A stretch of DNA of 38,955 bases, taken from contig JAFAPI010000155.1 of the NCBI GenBank assembly GCA_019247195.1, positions 1 to 38,955 of the forward strand. Direction: 5' to 3'. Source of the stretch: Gammaproteobacteria bacterium. Lineage in GTDB: Bacteria; Pseudomonadota; Gammaproteobacteria; Steroidobacterales; Steroidobacteraceae. A program made the translations under genes and the position numbers. Shown here in pieces: positions 19,161 through 25,778 of this stretch. The notes beneath the pieces were generated by a model. It saw only the letters and a program-made list of their open reading frames with translations. It was not told the origin of the DNA and did not search any database. Every line of letters starts with the position of its first letter. Positions within the stretch are counted from its first letter, which is position 1.

Positions 19161-19190
19161 TTGACGGCCCGGCGGCGCCACGGCGATACT
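19161..19190 (+). promoter_or_regulatory. trp operon promoter
   Basis: A sigma-70-like promoter with -35 TTGACG (19161-19166, 5 of 6) and -10 GATACT (19185-19190, 4 of 6) at 18-bp spacing. The expected start, 6-8 nt after the -10, falls at 19197, which is the A of the leader-peptide ATG. No other match of this quality lies before trpE. A TrpR operator is not evident. Confidence 0.65.
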
Positions 19191-19196
19191 CGAACC

Positions 19197-19244
19197 ATGC
19201 CGTTCGCCCGCCCGACGCGTCTTTGGTGGTGGCGCCCCACGTAA
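19197..19244 (+). CDS. trpL: trp leader peptide (15 aa, three tandem Trp codons)
   Basis: ATG at 19197 opens a 15-codon frame encoding MPFARPTRLWWWRPT, ending in TAA at 19242. The three consecutive TGG codons (19224-19232) are the hallmark of a tryptophan attenuation leader. They sit just before the 5' arm (19236-19240) of the first hairpin, so a ribosome stalled there would mask it. No Shine-Dalgarno precedes the ATG, and the predicted transcription start coincides with it, so translation is probably leaderless. Rhizobial trpL has the same architecture (leaderless, about 14 codons, WWW). Only the architecture is compared here, not homology. Confidence 0.85.
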   Translation: MPFARPTRLWWWRPT

Positions 19245-19305
19245 ACGGAGTGGGCACGGTCAGCTTCGCGCGCATTTAGTTCGGACTTCACCAGAACCCA
19301 TCTCC
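19236..19305 (+). promoter_or_regulatory. trp attenuator: pause and antiterminator hairpins
   Basis: CCCAC (19236-19240) can pair with GTGGG (19250-19254) as the 1:2 pause hairpin. GGAGTGGG (19247-19254) can instead pair with CCCATCTCC (19297-19305, one bulged T) as the 2:3 antiterminator. The latter uses bases needed for the terminator stem at 19295-19302, so antiterminator and terminator exclude each other. Stalling at the Trp codons covers arm 1 and favours the antiterminator, giving read-through when charged tRNA-Trp is scarce. Confidence 0.75.
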
Positions 19306-19330
19306 GGATCAACCCCGGGATGGGTTTTTT
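19295..19330 (+). terminator. trp attenuator intrinsic terminator
   Basis: AACCCATC (19295-19302) pairs perfectly with GATGGGTT (19319-19326), with a further CCGG/CCGG pairing inside the loop. The T-run continues to 19330, giving six T residues from 19325. The terminator ends 23 nt before the trpE start codon and is the 3:4 element of the attenuator. In this GC-rich genome the stem plus T-run is unmistakable. Confidence 0.88.
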
Positions 19331-19353
19331 GTTGTCTGCTGGAGGATAGGCCC

Positions 19354-20730
19354 TTGCAGGCCCGTTTCGACATCGCCGGCGATCTCGACACTCCGGTGTC
19401 GGCGTTCATGAAGCTGCGCGCCTTCGACCCGTGCTTCCTGCTCGAGAGCGTGGAGGGCGGTGAGCGGCTCGGCCGCTACTCCTTCGTCGGCTTCGGCGAG
19501 ACGCTGCAGGTGCGGCTCGATGCCGGCGGCCTCGTGGTGGGCGAGGAGCGGCGGCCGCTGCCGCGCAGCGCGCCCGAGCTGCTCGCGGCCCTGCGCAGCG
19601 CGCTCGCCCGGGCGCCCCAGCCGCAGCCCGAGGCGGGCGTGCCCCTCGCCGGCGGCCTCGTCGGCTACGCCGCCTACGACGTGGTGCGCTACTTCGAGCA
19701 CCTGCCGGCGCGTCTGCGCGCCGATGTGCCGGCGCTGCATTACGCGGCGCCGCGTTCGGTGCTGGTGTTTGACCATCTGACGCGCGGTATCGCCCTGCTG
19801 CACGCCGGCAGCGAGGCGGAGCGGGCAGCGCTGCGGCGCGAGGTGGTGCGGGCCCTGCATGGCGCGCTGCCGAACGGCGCGCGCCGCGGGCGCTACTCCC
19901 CGCCGCTGAGCGCCTTCGCGCGCGAGGCCTACCTCGAGGGTGTGCGCCGCACCCAGGAGCACATCGCCGCCGGCGACGTCTACCAGCTGGTGCTCGCCAG
20001 CCGCTTCGGCGGACGGCACGAGCTCGAGCCCTTCCAGGCCTATCGCGCCCTGCGGCTCATCAACCCTTCGCCCTACATGTACTACTGCGCCCTGGGCGAG
20101 GTCGCGGTGGTCGGCTCCTCGCCCGAGGCGCTGGTGAAGCTGAGCGGCCGCCACGCACAGCTGCGGCCGATCGCCGGCACCCGGCCGCGCGGCGCCGATC
20201 CCGCGCGCGATGCCGCGCACGAGCGCGAGCTGCTCGCCGACCCGAAGGAGAACGCCGAGCACGTGATGCTGGTCGATCTGGCGCGCAACGACCTCGGGCG
20301 GGTGGCGCGTGCCGGCAGCGTACGGGTGGATCCCTACCGCGCCATCGAGCGCTACAGCCACGTGATGCACATCGTCAGCGGCGTACGCGGTGAGCTCGCA
20401 CCGCAGTGCGACGCCTTCGACCTGTTCGCCGCGACCTTCCCGGCCGGTACGCTGGTCGGCGCCCCCAAGGTGCGCGCCATGCAGATCATCGACGAGCTCG
20501 AGCCGGTGAGCCGCGGACTCTATGGCGGCACGGTCGGCTACTTCGGCGCGCGCGGCGACATGGACCACGCGATCACCATCCGCACGCTGGTATTCCGCGG
20601 CGACGAGTACTCCTACCAGGCCGGTGCCGGCATCGTCGCCGACAGCCGCCCGGAGAGCGAGTACCAGGAGGTGCTCGCCAAGGGCGGGGCCATGGCGCGC
20701 GCGCTCGAGCTGGCCGGGGAGGGCCTGTGA
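19354..20730 (+). CDS. trpE: Anthranilate synthase component I
   Basis: Translation starts at TTG 19354 (LQARFDIAGD), fixed by a strong GGAGG at 19341-19345, 8 nt upstream and immediately after the attenuator T-run; no ATG is available. The 458-aa enzyme is somewhat shorter than the usual ~490-520 at the N-terminus but keeps the feedback-site LLES motif (FLLESVEGGERLGRYSFVGFGE). The chorismate-binding domain has AGDVYQLVLASRF, IAGTRPRG, HVMLVDLARNDLGRV, TFPAGTLVGAPKVRAMQII and YQAGAGIVADSRPESEYQE. With TrpG it converts chorismate and glutamine to anthranilate. The non-ATG start after an attenuator should keep translation modest. Confidence 0.97.
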   Translation: MQARFDIAGDLDTPVSAFMKLRAFDPCFLLESVEGGERLGRYSFVGFGETLQVRLDAGGLVVGEERRPLPRSAPELLAALRSALARAPQPQPEAGVPLAGGLVGYAAYDVVRYFEHLPARLRADVPALHYAAPRSVLVFDHLTRGIALLHAGSEAERAALRREVVRALHGALPNGARRGRYSPPLSAFAREAYLEGVRRTQEHIAAGDVYQLVLASRFGGRHELEPFQAYRALRLINPSPYMYYCALGEVAVVGSSPEALVKLSGRHAQLRPIAGTRPRGADPARDAAHERELLADPKENAEHVMLVDLARNDLGRVARAGSVRVDPYRAIERYSHVMHIVSGVRGELAPQCDAFDLFAATFPAGTLVGAPKVRAMQIIDELEPVSRGLYGGTVGYFGARGDMDHAITIRTLVFRGDEYSYQAGAGIVADSRPESEYQEVLAKGGAMARALELAGEGL

Positions 20731-21320
20731 GCGCGCGGCTGCTGCTCATCGACAACTACGACTCCTTCACCTACAACCTGGTGCAGGCCTTCCTGGTGCT
20801 GGGCGCGCAGGTGAGCGTCTACCGCAACGACGCCCTGACGCCCGAGGCGGCGCGCGCGCTCGCGCCGACGCACCTCTGCATCTCGCCCGGTCCCGGCACG
20901 CCGCGCCAGGCCGGGGTCTCGATGGAGATGATCCGTGCCTTCGCCGGGCAGGTGCCGGTGCTCGGGGTATGCCTCGGCCACCAGGCGATCGTGGAAGTGT
21001 TCGGCGGCGAGGTGGTGCGCGCCGCGCGTCTCATGCACGGCAAGACCTCGCCGGTGCATCACGACGGCCGCACGCTCTTCGCCGGGTTGCCGCAGCCGTG
21101 CGAGGTCGGGCGCTATCACTCGCTGCTGGCCGCCCCCGAGCGCATCCCGGCCGCGCTCGAAGTCAGCGCCCGTACCGCCGAGGGGGAGGTCATGGGGGTG
21201 CGTCACCGCTCACTGGCGGTGGAGGGCGTGCAGTTCCACCCGGAGAGCATCCTGACGCCCACCGGTCCGCGCCTGCTGGCGAACTTCCTGGGCGTCACCG
21301 CGGAGGCCGCGCGTGAGTGA
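20727..21320 (+). CDS. trpG: Anthranilate synthase component II (glutamine amidotransferase)
   Basis: The GTG at 20727 overlaps the trpE stop by 4 nt (GTGA). The 197-aa class I amidotransferase begins SARLLLIDNYDSFTYNLVQAF, has CISPGPGTP, the nucleophile C82 in VLGVCLGHQAI, and the His-Glu of the triad in VQFHPESILTP. It hydrolyses glutamine and channels ammonia to TrpE. Many bacteria share one TrpG between anthranilate and p-aminobenzoate synthesis; its placement here, coupled to trpE and under attenuation, points mainly to tryptophan. It is not fused to TrpD, unlike in E. coli. Confidence 0.97.
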   Translation: MSARLLLIDNYDSFTYNLVQAFLVLGAQVSVYRNDALTPEAARALAPTHLCISPGPGTPRQAGVSMEMIRAFAGQVPVLGVCLGHQAIVEVFGGEVVRAARLMHGKTSPVHHDGRTLFAGLPQPCEVGRYHSLLAAPERIPAALEVSARTAEGEVMGVRHRSLAVEGVQFHPESILTPTGPRLLANFLGVTAEAARE

Positions 21321-22338
21321 GGTGCGGGTGCTGCTCGAGCAGCTGCTCGAGCGCCGAGACCTGAGCGAGGCGCAGGCGGAGTCGCTCCTCGGGCACCTCA
21401 GTGACCGTGCCCTGCCGCCGGCGCTCGGCGGCGCGCTGCTCGCGGCCCTGGGCAGCAAGGGCGCGGTGGCGGCGGAGGTGCGCGGACTGGCGCGCGCGAT
21501 GCGCCGTCTCGCGCAGCGGCCCGCCACCCCGCCCGGACTGCGCGCCATCGACATCGTCGGCACCGGCGGCGATGCCTCCGGCAGCCTCAACATCTCCACC
21601 GGCACCGCGCTGCTGACGGCCGCCTGCGGCGTGCCGGTCATCAAGCACGGCAACCGCTCGGTGTCGAGCCGCTGCGGCAGTGCCGACGTGCTGGCCGCGC
21701 TCGGGCTGCCCATTCCGCTCGATGCGGGGGCCGCCGCGCGCTGCCTGCAGGCCACGGGCTTCACCTATCTCTTCGCGCCGCACTACCACGCCGCCACTGC
21801 GGCGATCGCACCGATCCGCGCCGCACTCGGGGTGCGCACCGTCTTCAACATCCTCGGCCCGCTCGTCAATCCCGCGCAACCGCCCCTGCACCTGGTCGGT
21901 GCCTACAGCGCCGAGGTGGCGCGGCTGATGGCGGACACCTTCGCCGGTCTGCCCATCGAGCGCACCTTCGTGGTCCATGGCGCGCTCGGCTGGGACGAAC
22001 CGACCCCGATCGGACCCTTCACGCTCTTCGACGTCGTGCCCGGGAGGGTACGCGAGAGCACCCGCACACCCGAGGACTACGGGCTCGAGCGCTGTCGCGC
22101 GCACGATCTTGCCGGCGGCGATGCTGCCCACAACGCACACGCCCTGCGCGCGGTGCTGCGCGGCGAGCGTCGCGATGCGCATCGTGACTGCCTGCTGCTC
22201 GGGGCGGCGCTGGCGCTGGAGGTGGCCGGCGAAGCCGACACGCCGGCCGCGGGCGTCGCGCGCGCCGCGCGGGCCATCGACGAGGGCGCGGCCGCCGCAT
22301 TGCTCGATCGGCTCGCGCGGCTGGGCGACGCGCCGTGA
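21313..22338 (+). CDS. trpD: Anthranilate phosphoribosyltransferase
   Basis: The GTG at 21313 overlaps trpG by 8 nt. The 341-aa protein has standard length and the type III phosphoribosyltransferase fold: IVGTGGDASGSLNISTGTALL (PRPP binding; the usual T-F-N-I-S reads S-L-N-I-S), VPVIKHGNRSVSSRCGSADVLAALG (anthranilate and Mg site), FAPHYHAATAAIAPIRAALGVRTVFNILGPLVNPA, and VVHGALGWDEPTPIGPF. It transfers phosphoribose to anthranilate, the second pathway step. Confidence 0.97.
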   Translation: MSEVRVLLEQLLERRDLSEAQAESLLGHLSDRALPPALGGALLAALGSKGAVAAEVRGLARAMRRLAQRPATPPGLRAIDIVGTGGDASGSLNISTGTALLTAACGVPVIKHGNRSVSSRCGSADVLAALGLPIPLDAGAAARCLQATGFTYLFAPHYHAATAAIAPIRAALGVRTVFNILGPLVNPAQPPLHLVGAYSAEVARLMADTFAGLPIERTFVVHGALGWDEPTPIGPFTLFDVVPGRVRESTRTPEDYGLERCRAHDLAGGDAAHNAHALRAVLRGERRDAHRDCLLLGAALALEVAGEADTPAAGVARAARAIDEGAAAALLDRLARLGDAP

Positions 22339-23150
22339 GCGGCTTCCTGGACGAGATGGCCGCGGCGAGCCGTGCTCGGCTGGAGACCTCGCGGCAGGCG
22401 GTCCCGCTGCGGGACCTCGCGCGCCGCGCGACCACGCTGGCGCCGGCCCCGCCCTTGCGGCTGAGCGGCTTCGACCTCATCGCCGAGGTGAAGCGTCGCT
22501 CGCCCGCGGCGGGCGTGCTGCGCGCGGCGGAGGATGATCTCGCGCAGCGGGTGCGCGACTACGCTGCCGGCGGCGCCTGCGCGGTCTCGGTGCTCACCGA
22601 GCCCACGCGCTTCGCCGGCACCCTCGCGGATCTCACGGCCGCGGCCGCGGCGCTGCAACCGCTGGGAGTCCCGGCGCTGCGCAAGGATTTCATCGTCGAT
22701 CCGTACCAGGTGTACGAGGCGCGCGCGGCCGGGGCCGGCGGCGTGCTGCTCATCCTGCGGATGCTGCCGCCGGCGCTCACGCAGACCCTGCTCGCCTGCG
22801 CGCGCGAGCTCGGGCTGTTCGCGCTGCTCGAGGCCTTCGATGCGGCCGACGCGGCCCTGGCACGGCGGCTGGTGGAAGGTCACGCGCATCAGCAGGTGCT
22901 GCTCGCGGGCCTCAACTGCCGCGACCTCGACTCGCTGCAGGTCGTGCCGCAACGCCTGCTCGAGGGGCTGGCGCAGTTGCCGCGTGGCGTGCCGCGGGTC
23001 GCCGAGAGCGGCCTCGAGCAGGCCGCGGACGCCGCGGCGCTCGCCGCGGCGGGCTATGAGGCGGCGCTGGTGGGTAGCGCGCTGATGCGTGGGCCCGAGC
23101 CGCGCGAGCTGACCGCCGCGCTCATCGCGGCGGGGCGGGGGGCGCGCTGA
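22335..23150 (+). CDS. trpC: Indole-3-glycerol-phosphate synthase
   Basis: The GTG at 22335 overlaps the trpD stop by 4 nt. The 271-aa (beta/alpha)8 enzyme shows LIAEVKRRSPAAGVL (catalytic Lys and phosphate-binding Ser), PALRKDFIVDPYQVYEARAAGAGGVLLI (catalytic Lys-Asp-Phe), LNCRDLDSLQV (the conserved Asn-x-Arg) and RVAESGL. It closes carboxyphenylaminodeoxyribulose phosphate to indole-3-glycerol phosphate. It is a single-function protein, not the TrpC-F fusion of enteric bacteria. trpF starts on the last base of its stop codon. Confidence 0.97.
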   Translation: MSGFLDEMAAASRARLETSRQAVPLRDLARRATTLAPAPPLRLSGFDLIAEVKRRSPAAGVLRAAEDDLAQRVRDYAAGGACAVSVLTEPTRFAGTLADLTAAAAALQPLGVPALRKDFIVDPYQVYEARAAGAGGVLLILRMLPPALTQTLLACARELGLFALLEAFDAADAALARRLVEGHAHQQVLLAGLNCRDLDSLQVVPQRLLEGLAQLPRGVPRVAESGLEQAADAAALAAAGYEAALVGSALMRGPEPRELTAALIAAGRGAR

Positions 23151-23743
23151 TGTGGATCAAGATCTGCGGCCTCAGCTCGGCGGAGGCGGTGGCGGCGGCG
23201 CTCGAGAGCGGCGCCGATGCGCTCGGCTTCGTGTTCACGGACTCGCCCCGGCGCGTGACGCCGCTCCAGGCGGCGCGGCTCGCCGCGCCGATCGGCGGGC
23301 GTGCCCGGCGCGTCGCCGTCGCGCGCCACCCGCCGCAGCAGCTCGTCGATGCCATCCTCGCGGACTTCGCGCCCGAGGTGCTGCAGACCGATGCCGACGA
23401 CTTTGCCGGTCTTACCCTGCCGGCCAGCCTCGGCCGGCTGCCGGTCTGGCGCGCGTCCCGCGGCGGGGCGCTGCCCGCGCGGCTGCTGTTCGAGGGCGCG
23501 GCGAGCGGGCGCGGCGAGCTCAGCGACTGGGCGGCGGCGCGCGAGCTCGCGCGCCGCACCGAGCTGGTTCTCGCCGGCGGGCTCAACTGCGCCAATGTCC
23601 GCGAGGCCCTCCGCGCCGTCGCTCCGTTCGGCGTCGACGTCTCGAGCGGCGTCGAGGACGAGCCGGGCCGCAAGAGCCCGGCGCTCATTGCCCGTTTTGT
23701 CGCTACCGTGCGGGGCGCGAGCGCCCCGGGGAACCTGTCATGA
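23150..23743 (+). CDS. trpF: Phosphoribosylanthranilate isomerase
   Basis: ATG 23150 shares its A with the trpC stop (TGATG). The 197-aa TIM barrel begins MWIKICGLSSAEAVAAALESGADALGFVFTDSPRRVTP, with the catalytic Cys in KICG. Near the end it has LVLAGGLNCANV and FGVDVSSGVEDEPGRKSP, the phosphate-binding loop. It carries out the Amadori isomerisation of phosphoribosylanthranilate. The catalytic Asp expected in the LQTDAD segment is present (EVLQTDADDF; the usual form is LQLHGDE). trpB overlaps its end by 4 nt. Confidence 0.96.
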   Translation: MWIKICGLSSAEAVAAALESGADALGFVFTDSPRRVTPLQAARLAAPIGGRARRVAVARHPPQQLVDAILADFAPEVLQTDADDFAGLTLPASLGRLPVWRASRGGALPARLLFEGAASGRGELSDWAAARELARRTELVLAGGLNCANVREALRAVAPFGVDVSSGVEDEPGRKSPALIARFVATVRGASAPGNLS

Positions 23744-24987
23744 GTGTCAGTGCCGCATCCGCCTCGCCCGAGCAGCTGCTCGCCGCCCTGATCGCCGGCG
23801 AGTATCCCGACGCGCGCGGACGATTCGGCCCGTTCGGCGGCCGCTACGTGCCCGAGACCCTGATTCCCGCGCTCGAGCGCCTGGAGCGCGGCGTACGCAC
23901 GCACCTGCACGCCGCCGAGTTCCGTGCCGAGCTCGACGCGCAGCTGGCGAGCTGGGCCGGCCGACCGACCGCGCTCACCCATGCGGCCCGGCTGTCGGCC
24001 CGCTGGGGGGCCGAGGTGTGGCTGAAGCGCGAGGACCTCGCCCATACCGGTGCGCACAAGATCAACAATGCGCTCGGGCAGGCGCTGCTCGCGCGGCGAC
24101 TCGGCGCGCGGCGCATCGTCGCCGAGACCGGCGCGGGCCAGCACGGCGTGGCGAGCGCGGCCGCGTGTGCGCGTCTCGGCCTGCCGTGCACGGTGTACAT
24201 GGGGTCGCTGGACATGGAGCGCCAGGCGCCCAACGTCGGGCGCATGCGGCTGCTCGGCGCGGAAGTGGTGCCGGTGACGAGCGGAGACCGCACGCTGCGC
24301 GCGGCGATCGATGAGGCGCTGCGGGACTGGGTGAGCGACCCTCTCGAAACCTACTACCTGCTCGGCTCGGTCGTGGGCCCACACCCCTACCCCTATCTGG
24401 TGCGCGAGCTGCAGGCGGTGATCGGTCGGGAAGCCCGCGCGCAGATACTCGCCGCCACCGGACGGCTGCCGCGGGCGCTGATCGCCTGCGTCGGCGGCGG
24501 CTCGAACGCGATCGGCGCCTTCCATGCCTTCATCGCCGACCGCGCGGTCGAGATCCTGGGGGTCGAGGCCGGCGGCCGCGGTCCGGCGCTGGGCGAGAAC
24601 GCCGCGACGCTTGCCTTCGGCACCCCCGGGGTGCTGCACGGCACGTACTCGCTCCTGCTGCAGGATGCGGAAGGCCAGGTGCAGGAGACTCACTCGGTGT
24701 CCGCCGGCCTGGACTACCCGGGGGTCGGTCCCGAGCACGCACTGCTGGCCGCCGCCGGGCGTGTCCAGTACGGCACCTCGAGCGACGCCGACGCGCTCGC
24801 GGCGGTGCGGGCGCTGTGCGAGTGCGAGGGCATCCTGCCGGCGATCGAGAGCGCGCACGCGCTCGCGGGCGCGATGCGCTGGGCGCAGCAGCACCCGGGA
24901 GACACGATCCTGGTGTGTCTCTCGGGGCGCGGCGACAAGGACATGCCTACCCTGCAGCGCACGCTGCTCGCCGAGGGGCAGCCGTGA
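23740..24987 (+). CDS. trpB: Tryptophan synthase beta chain
   Basis: ATG 23740 overlaps the trpF stop (ATGA). The 415-aa PLP enzyme begins with a short extension before GRFGPFGGRYVPETL. The PLP-binding lysine is K107 in HTGAHKINNALGQ. Other family blocks are ETGAGQHGVASA with catalytic Glu, GSLDMERQAPNVGRMRLLGAEV, CVGGGSNAIGAFH (PLP-phosphate loop), SVSAGLDYPGVGPEH and CLSGRGDKDM. It condenses indole with serine to tryptophan in an alpha2beta2 complex with TrpA, whose gene overlaps by 4 nt. Confidence 0.98.
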   Translation: MSVSAASASPEQLLAALIAGEYPDARGRFGPFGGRYVPETLIPALERLERGVRTHLHAAEFRAELDAQLASWAGRPTALTHAARLSARWGAEVWLKREDLAHTGAHKINNALGQALLARRLGARRIVAETGAGQHGVASAAACARLGLPCTVYMGSLDMERQAPNVGRMRLLGAEVVPVTSGDRTLRAAIDEALRDWVSDPLETYYLLGSVVGPHPYPYLVRELQAVIGREARAQILAATGRLPRALIACVGGGSNAIGAFHAFIADRAVEILGVEAGGRGPALGENAATLAFGTPGVLHGTYSLLLQDAEGQVQETHSVSAGLDYPGVGPEHALLAAAGRVQYGTSSDADALAAVRALCECEGILPAIESAHALAGAMRWAQQHPGDTILVCLSGRGDKDMPTLQRTLLAEGQP

Positions 24988-25778
24988 CCGGCCCCGCGCG
25001 CATTACCGCGGCGCTGCGCCGCGCGGGGGCCGGGGGGGAGCCCGCCCTCATCGCCTATCTCACGGCGGGCTTTCCCGAGCGCGCCCGCTTCGGCGCGCAT
25101 GTGCGCGCGATCGCCGCCGCCGCCGACGTGATCGAAGTGGGCGTACCGTTCACTGATCCGATGGCGGACGGCGTCACCATCCAGCGCGCGAGCTTTGCGG
25201 CGCTGGCGCAGGGCGTGACGCTGCGCTGGATCCTCGATGAGCTCGAGCAGCTGCAGCCCCTGCCGGTGCCGGTGCTGCTGATGAGCTACCTCAACCCGCT
25301 GCTCGCCTTCGGCCCGCTGCCGCTGGCCGCCCGCGCGGCGCGCGCGGGGGTGAGCGGGTTCATCGTGCCGGACCTGCCGCTCGATGAGAGCAGCGAGCTG
25401 CGGGCGGCGCTGCGCGGCGAGGGGCTCGCGCTGGTGCAGATGGTGACTCCGGTCACCGAGCCGGAGCGGCTGGGCCAGCTGTGCGAAAGCAGCGAGGGAT
25501 TCCTCTACGCCGTCACCATGACCGGCACCACCGGGCGGCAGGTGAGCGTCCCGCCCGAGACGCTCCGCTACCTGGATGCGGTGCGCGCCCGCTCGCCGCT
25601 GCCGGTCTGCGCCGGGTTCGGCATCCGCAGCCGCGAGCACGTCGCAAAGCTGAAAGGCCACGTGGACGGGGTGGTGGTCGGCTCGGCGCTGGTGGAGGTG
25701 CTCGAGCGCGAGGAGGACGCGACGCGCTGGCTGCGCGCCCTGCGGGGGCCGCTGGCCGCCCGGGGTGCAGCGCGCTAA
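24984..25778 (+). CDS. trpA: Tryptophan synthase alpha chain
   Basis: The GTG at 24984 overlaps the trpB stop (GTGA). The 264-aa TIM barrel has LIAYLTAGFPE, the catalytic Glu in ADVIEVGVPFTDPMADG along with the second catalytic Asp (PFTDP), MSYLNPLLAFG, GFIVPDLPLDES, YAVTMTGTTG and VCAGFGIRSREHV. It cleaves indole-3-glycerol phosphate to indole, which is tunnelled to TrpB. It is the last pathway gene; a thioesterase-like gene follows 18 nt downstream with no terminator visible between them. Confidence 0.97.
   Translation: MTGPARITAALRRAGAGGEPALIAYLTAGFPERARFGAHVRAIAAAADVIEVGVPFTDPMADGVTIQRASFAALAQGVTLRWILDELEQLQPLPVPVLLMSYLNPLLAFGPLPLAARAARAGVSGFIVPDLPLDESSELRAALRGEGLALVQMVTPVTEPERLGQLCESSEGFLYAVTMTGTTGRQVSVPPETLRYLDAVRARSPLPVCAGFGIRSREHVAKLKGHVDGVVVGSALVEVLEREEDATRWLRALRGPLAARGAAR

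Follow-up and report, generated by a model that had tools for sequence, protein, structure and literature searches.

An apparently leaderless trpL start in the predicted trp attenuator of a gammaproteobacterium, conserved across its order

Introduction

Textbook trp attenuation is modelled on the leader of Escherichia coli, which has a Shine-Dalgarno (SD) sequence and a 5'UTR. In Sinorhizobium meliloti, the trpLE(G) transcript is described as opening with the AUG of a 14-amino-acid ORF containing Trp codons, with an attenuator before trpE(G), an arrangement like the one reported here (PMC7298713). According to the available parts of these reports, S. meliloti has three trp operons, trpE(G) being one, and rnTrpL destabilises the separate trpDC mRNA (PMC7298713, PMC7143759). 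Streptomyces lividans trpL1 (MFAHSTRNWWWTAHPAAH) resembles our locus as well: it is leaderless as judged by an RNA-seq start, contains three Trp codons, and terminator-like hairpins are located before trpE; however, unlike here, leaderless transcripts are frequent (17%) in the organism, an actinobacterium, and trpE is monocistronic (PMC8079986, in the parts available). The ilvL leader of Corynebacterium glutamicum likewise belongs to an attenuator and has its start codon one nucleotide from the transcription start, but it controls a branched-chain amino acid operon of an actinobacterium (PMC11857589, in the parts available). In searches mainly of the open-access literature, as far as the sources were available, a leaderless trpL was found described neither for a gammaproteobacterium nor for Bacteroidota.

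We have analyzed a stretch of 38,955 nucleotides, in the following called the window, from a gammaproteobacterium of the order Steroidobacterales (contig JAFAPI010000155.1, assembly GCA_019247195.1). In this organism and its relatives, a classic attenuator appears to control the trp genes, and its sensor peptide seems to start at the first RNA base. The attenuator kind is known, as is leaderless trpL in Sinorhizobium and Streptomyces; apparently new is the conserved leaderless-type trpL start in this lineage.

Results and Discussion

The trpL region and the trp operon

A short ORF with tandem Trp codons is located directly upstream of trpE, as is expected of a ribosome-mediated trp attenuator (Table 1). 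A promoter scan returned one site, with shuffled sequences averaging 0.0, and the A of the trpL ATG at 19197 is the seventh base past the -10 hexamer. This ATG has no SD sequence before it. The strict pattern TTGAC-N18-20-ATACT-N6-9-ATG gave a single match in the 3.18-Mb genome (257 contigs, 92% complete), which is trpL, and none in a reversed control. The initial annotation had described a TTGACG-N18-GATACT promoter, an SD-less trpL with three consecutive Trp codons, an attenuator and a trpE starting with TTG. All of these are present in the window, the coordinates of the elements are correct, and the layout is beyond chance, except for an additional hairpin proposed at 19236-19254.

Table 1. 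Features of the trpL leader and the trp operon in the window
Feature	Position	Strand	Basis or remark
-35 element TTGACG	19161-19166	+	promoter scan; element kept in relatives
-10 element GATACT	19185-19190	+	18-nt spacer; ends 6 nt before ATG
trpL, leaderless-type leader ORF MPFARPTRLWWWRPT	19197-19244, stop included	+	translated frame; relatives
Three tandem Trp (UGG) codons, presumed sensor	19224-19232	+	
Segment 2 CGGAGUGGG, 5' arm of predicted antiterminator	19246-19254	+	
Segment 3 AACCCAUCUCCG, common to antiterminator and terminator	19295-19306	+	
Intrinsic terminator hairpin with T6 tail	19295-19330	+	would end leader RNA at ~131-134 nt
Shine-Dalgarno GGAGG of trpE	19341-19345	+	
trpE, TTG start	19354-20730	+	above Pfam cut-off, below cut-off of best NCBIfam model
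trpG	20727-21320	+	TIGR00566 above cut-off
trpD	21313-22338	+	TIGR01245 above cut-off
trpC	22335-23150	+	above cut-off for Pfam IGPS, below it for the NCBIfam TrpC models
trpF	23150-23743	+	NCBIfam best 132.9 bits, below family cut-offs
trpB, within open frame	23152-24987	+	TIGR00263, residues 223-603; positions are those of the open frame
trpA, open frame	24816-25778	+	TIGR00262; positions are those of the open frame

A complete trpEGDCFBA operon lies downstream of the attenuator. TrpE was matched best by the NCBIfam model trpE_most with 478 bits (cut-off 517.7), compared with 256 bits for trpE_proteo, which we take to be the model of E. coli-type TrpE, and 202 bits for TrpE-clade3, presumably the fused rhizobial type. 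Unlike in S. meliloti, the trp genes form a single operon here, trpE and trpG are separate, and a different TrpE model fits best. Among relatives, 72 loci were searched, some of which end early; 69 of them have TrpG next to trpE, and 66 have TrpD.

Conservation of the leader start

Two kinds of loci were used for comparison, namely trpE loci of genomes related at the genus, family or order level, and contigs picked by a TrpE identity of about 58-84%, for which the order is not given and some labels look wrong. A usable trpE start was available for 91 of the 93 loci (L032 and L109 had none within the locus), and 81 remained as distinct after removal of 10 duplicates. A W-rich leader ORF was identified by rule in 77 of the 81, the ORF of L127 being spurious and that of L015 probably a wrong choice; the longest run of Trp codons is three in 49 and two in 26 of the 77 loci. 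No W leader was found by this rule in L019, L030, L046 and L124. The trpE locus of L019 shows no leader, L030 has kept promoter and ATG with the Trp codons absent, and L046 has kept promoter, terminator and an ATG that leads into a frame containing just one Trp codon.

A ribosome-mediated trp attenuator with a leaderless-type start, as initially annotated for this one gammaproteobacterium, proved to be conserved over the order: promoter elements end 5-10 nt ahead of an in-frame start in 74 of the 77 W-leader loci, which are kin, so that these counts are not independent. The Trp codons and hairpins are likewise kept in relatives, the small hairpin 19236-19254 excepted. Leader starts were examined by an anchored test, in which -35 and -10 hexamers are scored at 5-10 nt ahead of the ATG that is closest to the Trp run, and 9 of 12 matches constitute a pass. 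This test was passed by 47 of the 77 leader ATGs, compared with 4 of 244 other upstream ATGs and none of the 77 trpE starts. Six further loci reach the same threshold at another in-frame start, which is GTG in two of them. The remaining 21 passing loci constitute one subclade of close relatives with another element, TATTGTA plus TG(n)TAnnnT, ending 6-7 nt before the ATG; this element, which was defined post hoc after being seen, occurs at 21/21 leaders and 0/63 other ATGs. By source, 48 of 49 W-leader loci from genomes of given kinship passed, and 26 of 28 from the others. Loci of trpE were examined in 14 families, 13 of which contain at least one anchored leader; in family f12, none was anchored among the examined trpE loci, and in family f6, one of two loci is without a leader.

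SD 4-mers were found before 2 of the 77 leaders as compared to 52 of the 77 trpE starts. SD energies at the leaders equal those at random upstream positions (p=0.26), hence the SD sequence is absent rather than depleted. The chosen leader starts are ATG in 76/77 loci, under a rule that prefers ATG, and trpE starts are TTG in 34/77; the base preceding the leader start is C in 54/77. Both marks of a leaderless mRNA, a promoter positioned at the start codon and an absent SD sequence, are thus found as far as geometry goes, from which a 5'UTR of 1-3 nt is indistinguishable from zero. Judged in this way, the "apparently leaderless" trpL start is a conserved trait across the order.

The attenuator could also be real and its start ordinary, with transcription beginning further upstream and SD-less translation from a short or normal 5'UTR. 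Trp leaders of the same class outside the order are informative in this respect. A TrpE match was obtained in 137 of 184 genomes of the class sample at E<=1e-90, a limit which probably leaves out enteric-type TrpE, and 67 of the 134 outside the order were examined. W-rich leaders, many of them of WRW type, were found in 22 of the 67 loci, and 45 had no W leader by rule. These other gammaproteobacterial leaders are SD-less too, with an SD at -6 kcal/mol or better in 1/22, and the best promoter ends 5-10 nt from the start in 1/22, as would be seen if SD-less trp leaders commonly had an ordinary start. Additionally, TATTGT itself could be the -10 element in the 21-locus subclade, which would result in a 5'UTR of ~24 nt. 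However, the same best-promoter method gave a gap of 5-10 nt to the ATG in 49 of the 77 order-type loci, and the anchored test distinguished leader ATGs (47/77) from control ATGs (4/244). We regard an ordinary start as distinctly improbable.

Class loci such as L141, L154, L165, L176, and L177 showed another leader type with W-R-W near its end, SD-less and with no ATG-anchored promoter. In the phylum sample, which gave a TrpE match in 105 of 120 genomes, no anchored W leader was found among the 29 loci examined.

Attenuator structures

The terminator arms AACCCAUC and GAUGGGUU at 19295-19326 lead into the T6 run at 19325-19330; a terminator scan returned two overlapping sites (shuffles average 0.5). 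A terminator was identified by a T-run rule in 71 of the 77 loci, and L018, L112, L114, L115, L118, and L127 failed. The first five of these, with weak or odd terminators, were removed before alignment together with L127 and L015; removal of 14 near-duplicates from the remaining 70 loci left 56 aligned leaders. The terminator helix is paired in 86.3% of the cells of this alignment and shows compensatory changes, with 9 of 12 pairs changed on both sides; its covariation score was reached by 0/500 shuffles, which ignore relatedness. The antiterminator 19246-19254/19297-19306 is paired in 85.5% of the cells without excess covariation (163/500 shuffles equal its score, 110/500 its percentage), as would be expected of a segment that takes part in two helices. 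Across many families of the alignment, the terminator sequence ACCCATCTCC (19296-19305 in the window) is the most frequent form, which is also expected of such a segment.

Of 76 loci, 59 have a duplex of segments 2 and 3 that is better than its mononucleotide shuffles (60 per locus, p<=0.05); the duplex of the window itself is not distinct from shuffles (p=0.13). Folding over the 76 loci gave a mean z of -2.07 for the stretch of segments 2-3 and of -4.87 for segments 3-4. The hairpin 19236-19254, as drawn in the initial annotation, was rejected as a conserved feature: 65.4% of its cells are paired, which is below its own shuffles. The 1:2 stretch reached a mean z of -1.36 over the 76 loci and an MFE z of +0.3 in the window (Trp codons to segment 2). 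Of the hairpins originally proposed, the terminator was retained on account of its covariation and the antiterminator on account of its conserved complementarity.

No Rfam family matched the window at the gathering threshold. Among six sub-threshold matches, Trp_leader (RF00513) was the sole plausible one, with 17.8 bits against a threshold of 41, an E-value of 0.25 and the full model length; in the loci of 17 relatives this model gave no match at E<=0.5.

Taken alone, the complete leader of the window folds only modestly better than shuffles (z -1.78, 9/200 as good), a value that would also suit a chance ORF with chance hairpins devoid of any regulatory function. Such a coincidence is hardly credible, however, as the Trp codons, the terminator and the geometry are conserved, and a covariance model of the leader gave matches ahead of trpE in 49 of 60 genomes, that of the window included.

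The region is best explained, with high confidence, as a ribosome-mediated transcription attenuator of trpEGDCFBA whose leader peptide is made from a leaderless (5'-terminal AUG) start. We infer that RNA polymerase would start at the leader AUG or within one or two bases of it, and that the ribosome would load straight onto the 5' end of the RNA. When Trp is scarce, the ribosome would stall at UGG-UGG-UGG, segment 2 would pair with segment 3, and the operon would be read through. When Trp is plentiful, it would reach the stop codon and mask segment 2; the terminator formed by segments 3 and 4 would then release a leader RNA of ~131-134 nt.

The E. coli trpL leader is a classic attenuator like the one described here, and its core around TTGGTGGCGCACTTCCTGAAACGG agrees nearly base for base with that of some relatives (e.g. 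L131); the nearly identical part comprises TGGTGGCGCACTTC, the stop codon and AACGG. Upon alignment to E. coli trpL, 39 of 75 leaders outscored all 50 mononucleotide shuffles. Unlike in the leader of the window, AAAAAGG precedes the ATG of E. coli trpL, which also differs in start site and TrpR operator. Hence, the regulatory core resembles the enteric one, but the start does not. The likeness of the cores may reflect either common descent or shared constraint.

Trp leaders of Bacteroidota

We also examined 44 distinct trpE loci of Bacteroidota. The titles of their records assign 15 of these to the phylum, and the other 29 come from the class to which one of the 15 belongs, where a TrpE match at E<=1e-120 was obtained in 31 of 99 genomes. 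W-rich leaders were found by rule in 29 of the 44 loci, those of L074 and L079 being doubtful. The -7 box consensus of Bacteroidota is given as TAnnTTTG (PMC7366714, in the parts available). This box ends 3-10 nt before the leader ATG in 14 of the 29 W leaders (L069-L071, L260, L266, L268, L269, L274-L276, L280, L281, L284, and L287). Altogether, 15 of 306 upstream ATGs are anchored to the box, and all 15 are W-leader starts, with two in L284. In the other 15 leaders, TAnnTTTG is located 12-32 nt away or missing, hence the anchored layout is not universal. Very short 5'UTRs are uncommon in Bacteroidota: in the parts available of the respective reports, 5'UTRs under 10 nt are put at ~3.7% in Bacteroides thetaiotaomicron (PMC7366714) and leaderless transcripts at 5.5% in Flavobacterium psychrophilum (PMC9723704). 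The Bacteroidota leaders may represent a leaderless or near-leaderless trp attenuator geometry with a promoter box of their own.

Action in trans and relation to Sinorhizobium

It had further been suggested from the sequence of the window that the terminated leader RNA and peptide could be a trans-acting pair. By analogy to S. meliloti, one or both might act in trans in addition to attenuation in cis, as S. meliloti trpL shares the layout of 5'-terminal AUG, Trp codons and attenuator (PMC7298713, in the parts available). Furthermore, no match to Trp_repressor (PF01371) was found in the genome of the window, which is 92% complete, so that the leader could be made at every Trp level. A PF01371 protein is, however, present in 26 of 38 genomes of the genus, and its absence here could be due either to a gap in the assembly or to a true loss. 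Codons were compared in 15 disjoint close pairs. Before the Trp run, amino-acid changes are below expectation (21 nonsynonymous, 20 synonymous, ratio 0.34, with 20 multi-hit codons not counted), which is the only hint of constraint on the peptide; but this signal may stem from needs of the RNA or of initiation and would become smaller on inclusion of the multi-hit codons, and the codons after the Trp run are unconstrained (12 nonsynonymous, 4 synonymous, ratio 1.08). The N-terminus of the peptide varies in sequence and length between families, and the ends outside the Trp run are not conserved.

The organization of the genes also argues against action in trans. In S. meliloti, trpDC is transcribed apart from trpE; here, the window contains one trpEGDCFBA run with trpDC in the same operon as trpE, hence the known trans target is not separate. 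Moreover, no stand-alone copy of the leader was recognised in the 60 genomes with the covariance model, in a search that scored at most 54 candidates per genome under strict filters and could have missed weak copies. Matches away from trpE comprised 17 weaker ones (E of at least 4.5e-6) and antisense echoes of the terminator; the six of the 17 that were inspected resemble ordinary terminators or coding sequence and not trpL. When the leader was scanned against the window for RNA-RNA duplexes, the mean was -64 kcal/mol and the best trp-operon stretch ranked 3 of 1925, which is uninformative at this G+C content. With one operon, no stand-alone copy recognised and unconserved peptide ends, the suggested trans-acting pair gained no support, and we consider it unlikely.

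The initial annotation had allowed for a design either convergent or shared with Sinorhizobium. The nearest TrpE model is trpE_most and not TrpE-clade3, and no W leader was found in 45 of the 67 class loci; hence, the comparison favours convergence rather than a shared origin.

Occurrence of leaderless-type starts

Leaderless-type trp leaders are combined with a sigma-70-type -10 box in the lineage studied here and with TAnnTTTG in Bacteroidota. It is conceivable, and we propose it tentatively, that leaderless or near-leaderless starts are under selection in the trp attenuators of non-enteric bacteria and arose there several times, each with the promoter of its own lineage, perhaps because a 5'-terminal AUG allows the ribosome to stay close enough behind the polymerase for Trp to be sensed on a leader of ~130 nt. 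Should the leaderless form be the rule in the order and frequent in Bacteroidota, in addition to the published cases of Sinorhizobium and Streptomyces, the special case may be the textbook layout, and the coupling of leaderless initiation to transcription would become testable by comparison and by reporters. The recurrence of this layout across lineages is a more interesting lead than action in trans.

The promoter-ATG geometry additionally provides a simple rule for locating leader starts in genomes without transcriptomes. In the 60 genomes, the one of the window included, the strict pattern occurred 55 times as compared to 14 times in the reversed control, and 20 of the 55 matches are trpL by coordinates. 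Among the other 35 matches, 20 were examined and none opens an evident amino-acid leader; some of them open regulator-like or other genes, and others are probably due to chance. In three cases (L205, L206, and L212), small regulator-like genes, ArsR-like by look, directly follow a consensus promoter in relatives, which suggests that leaderless mRNAs are in use beyond trpL.
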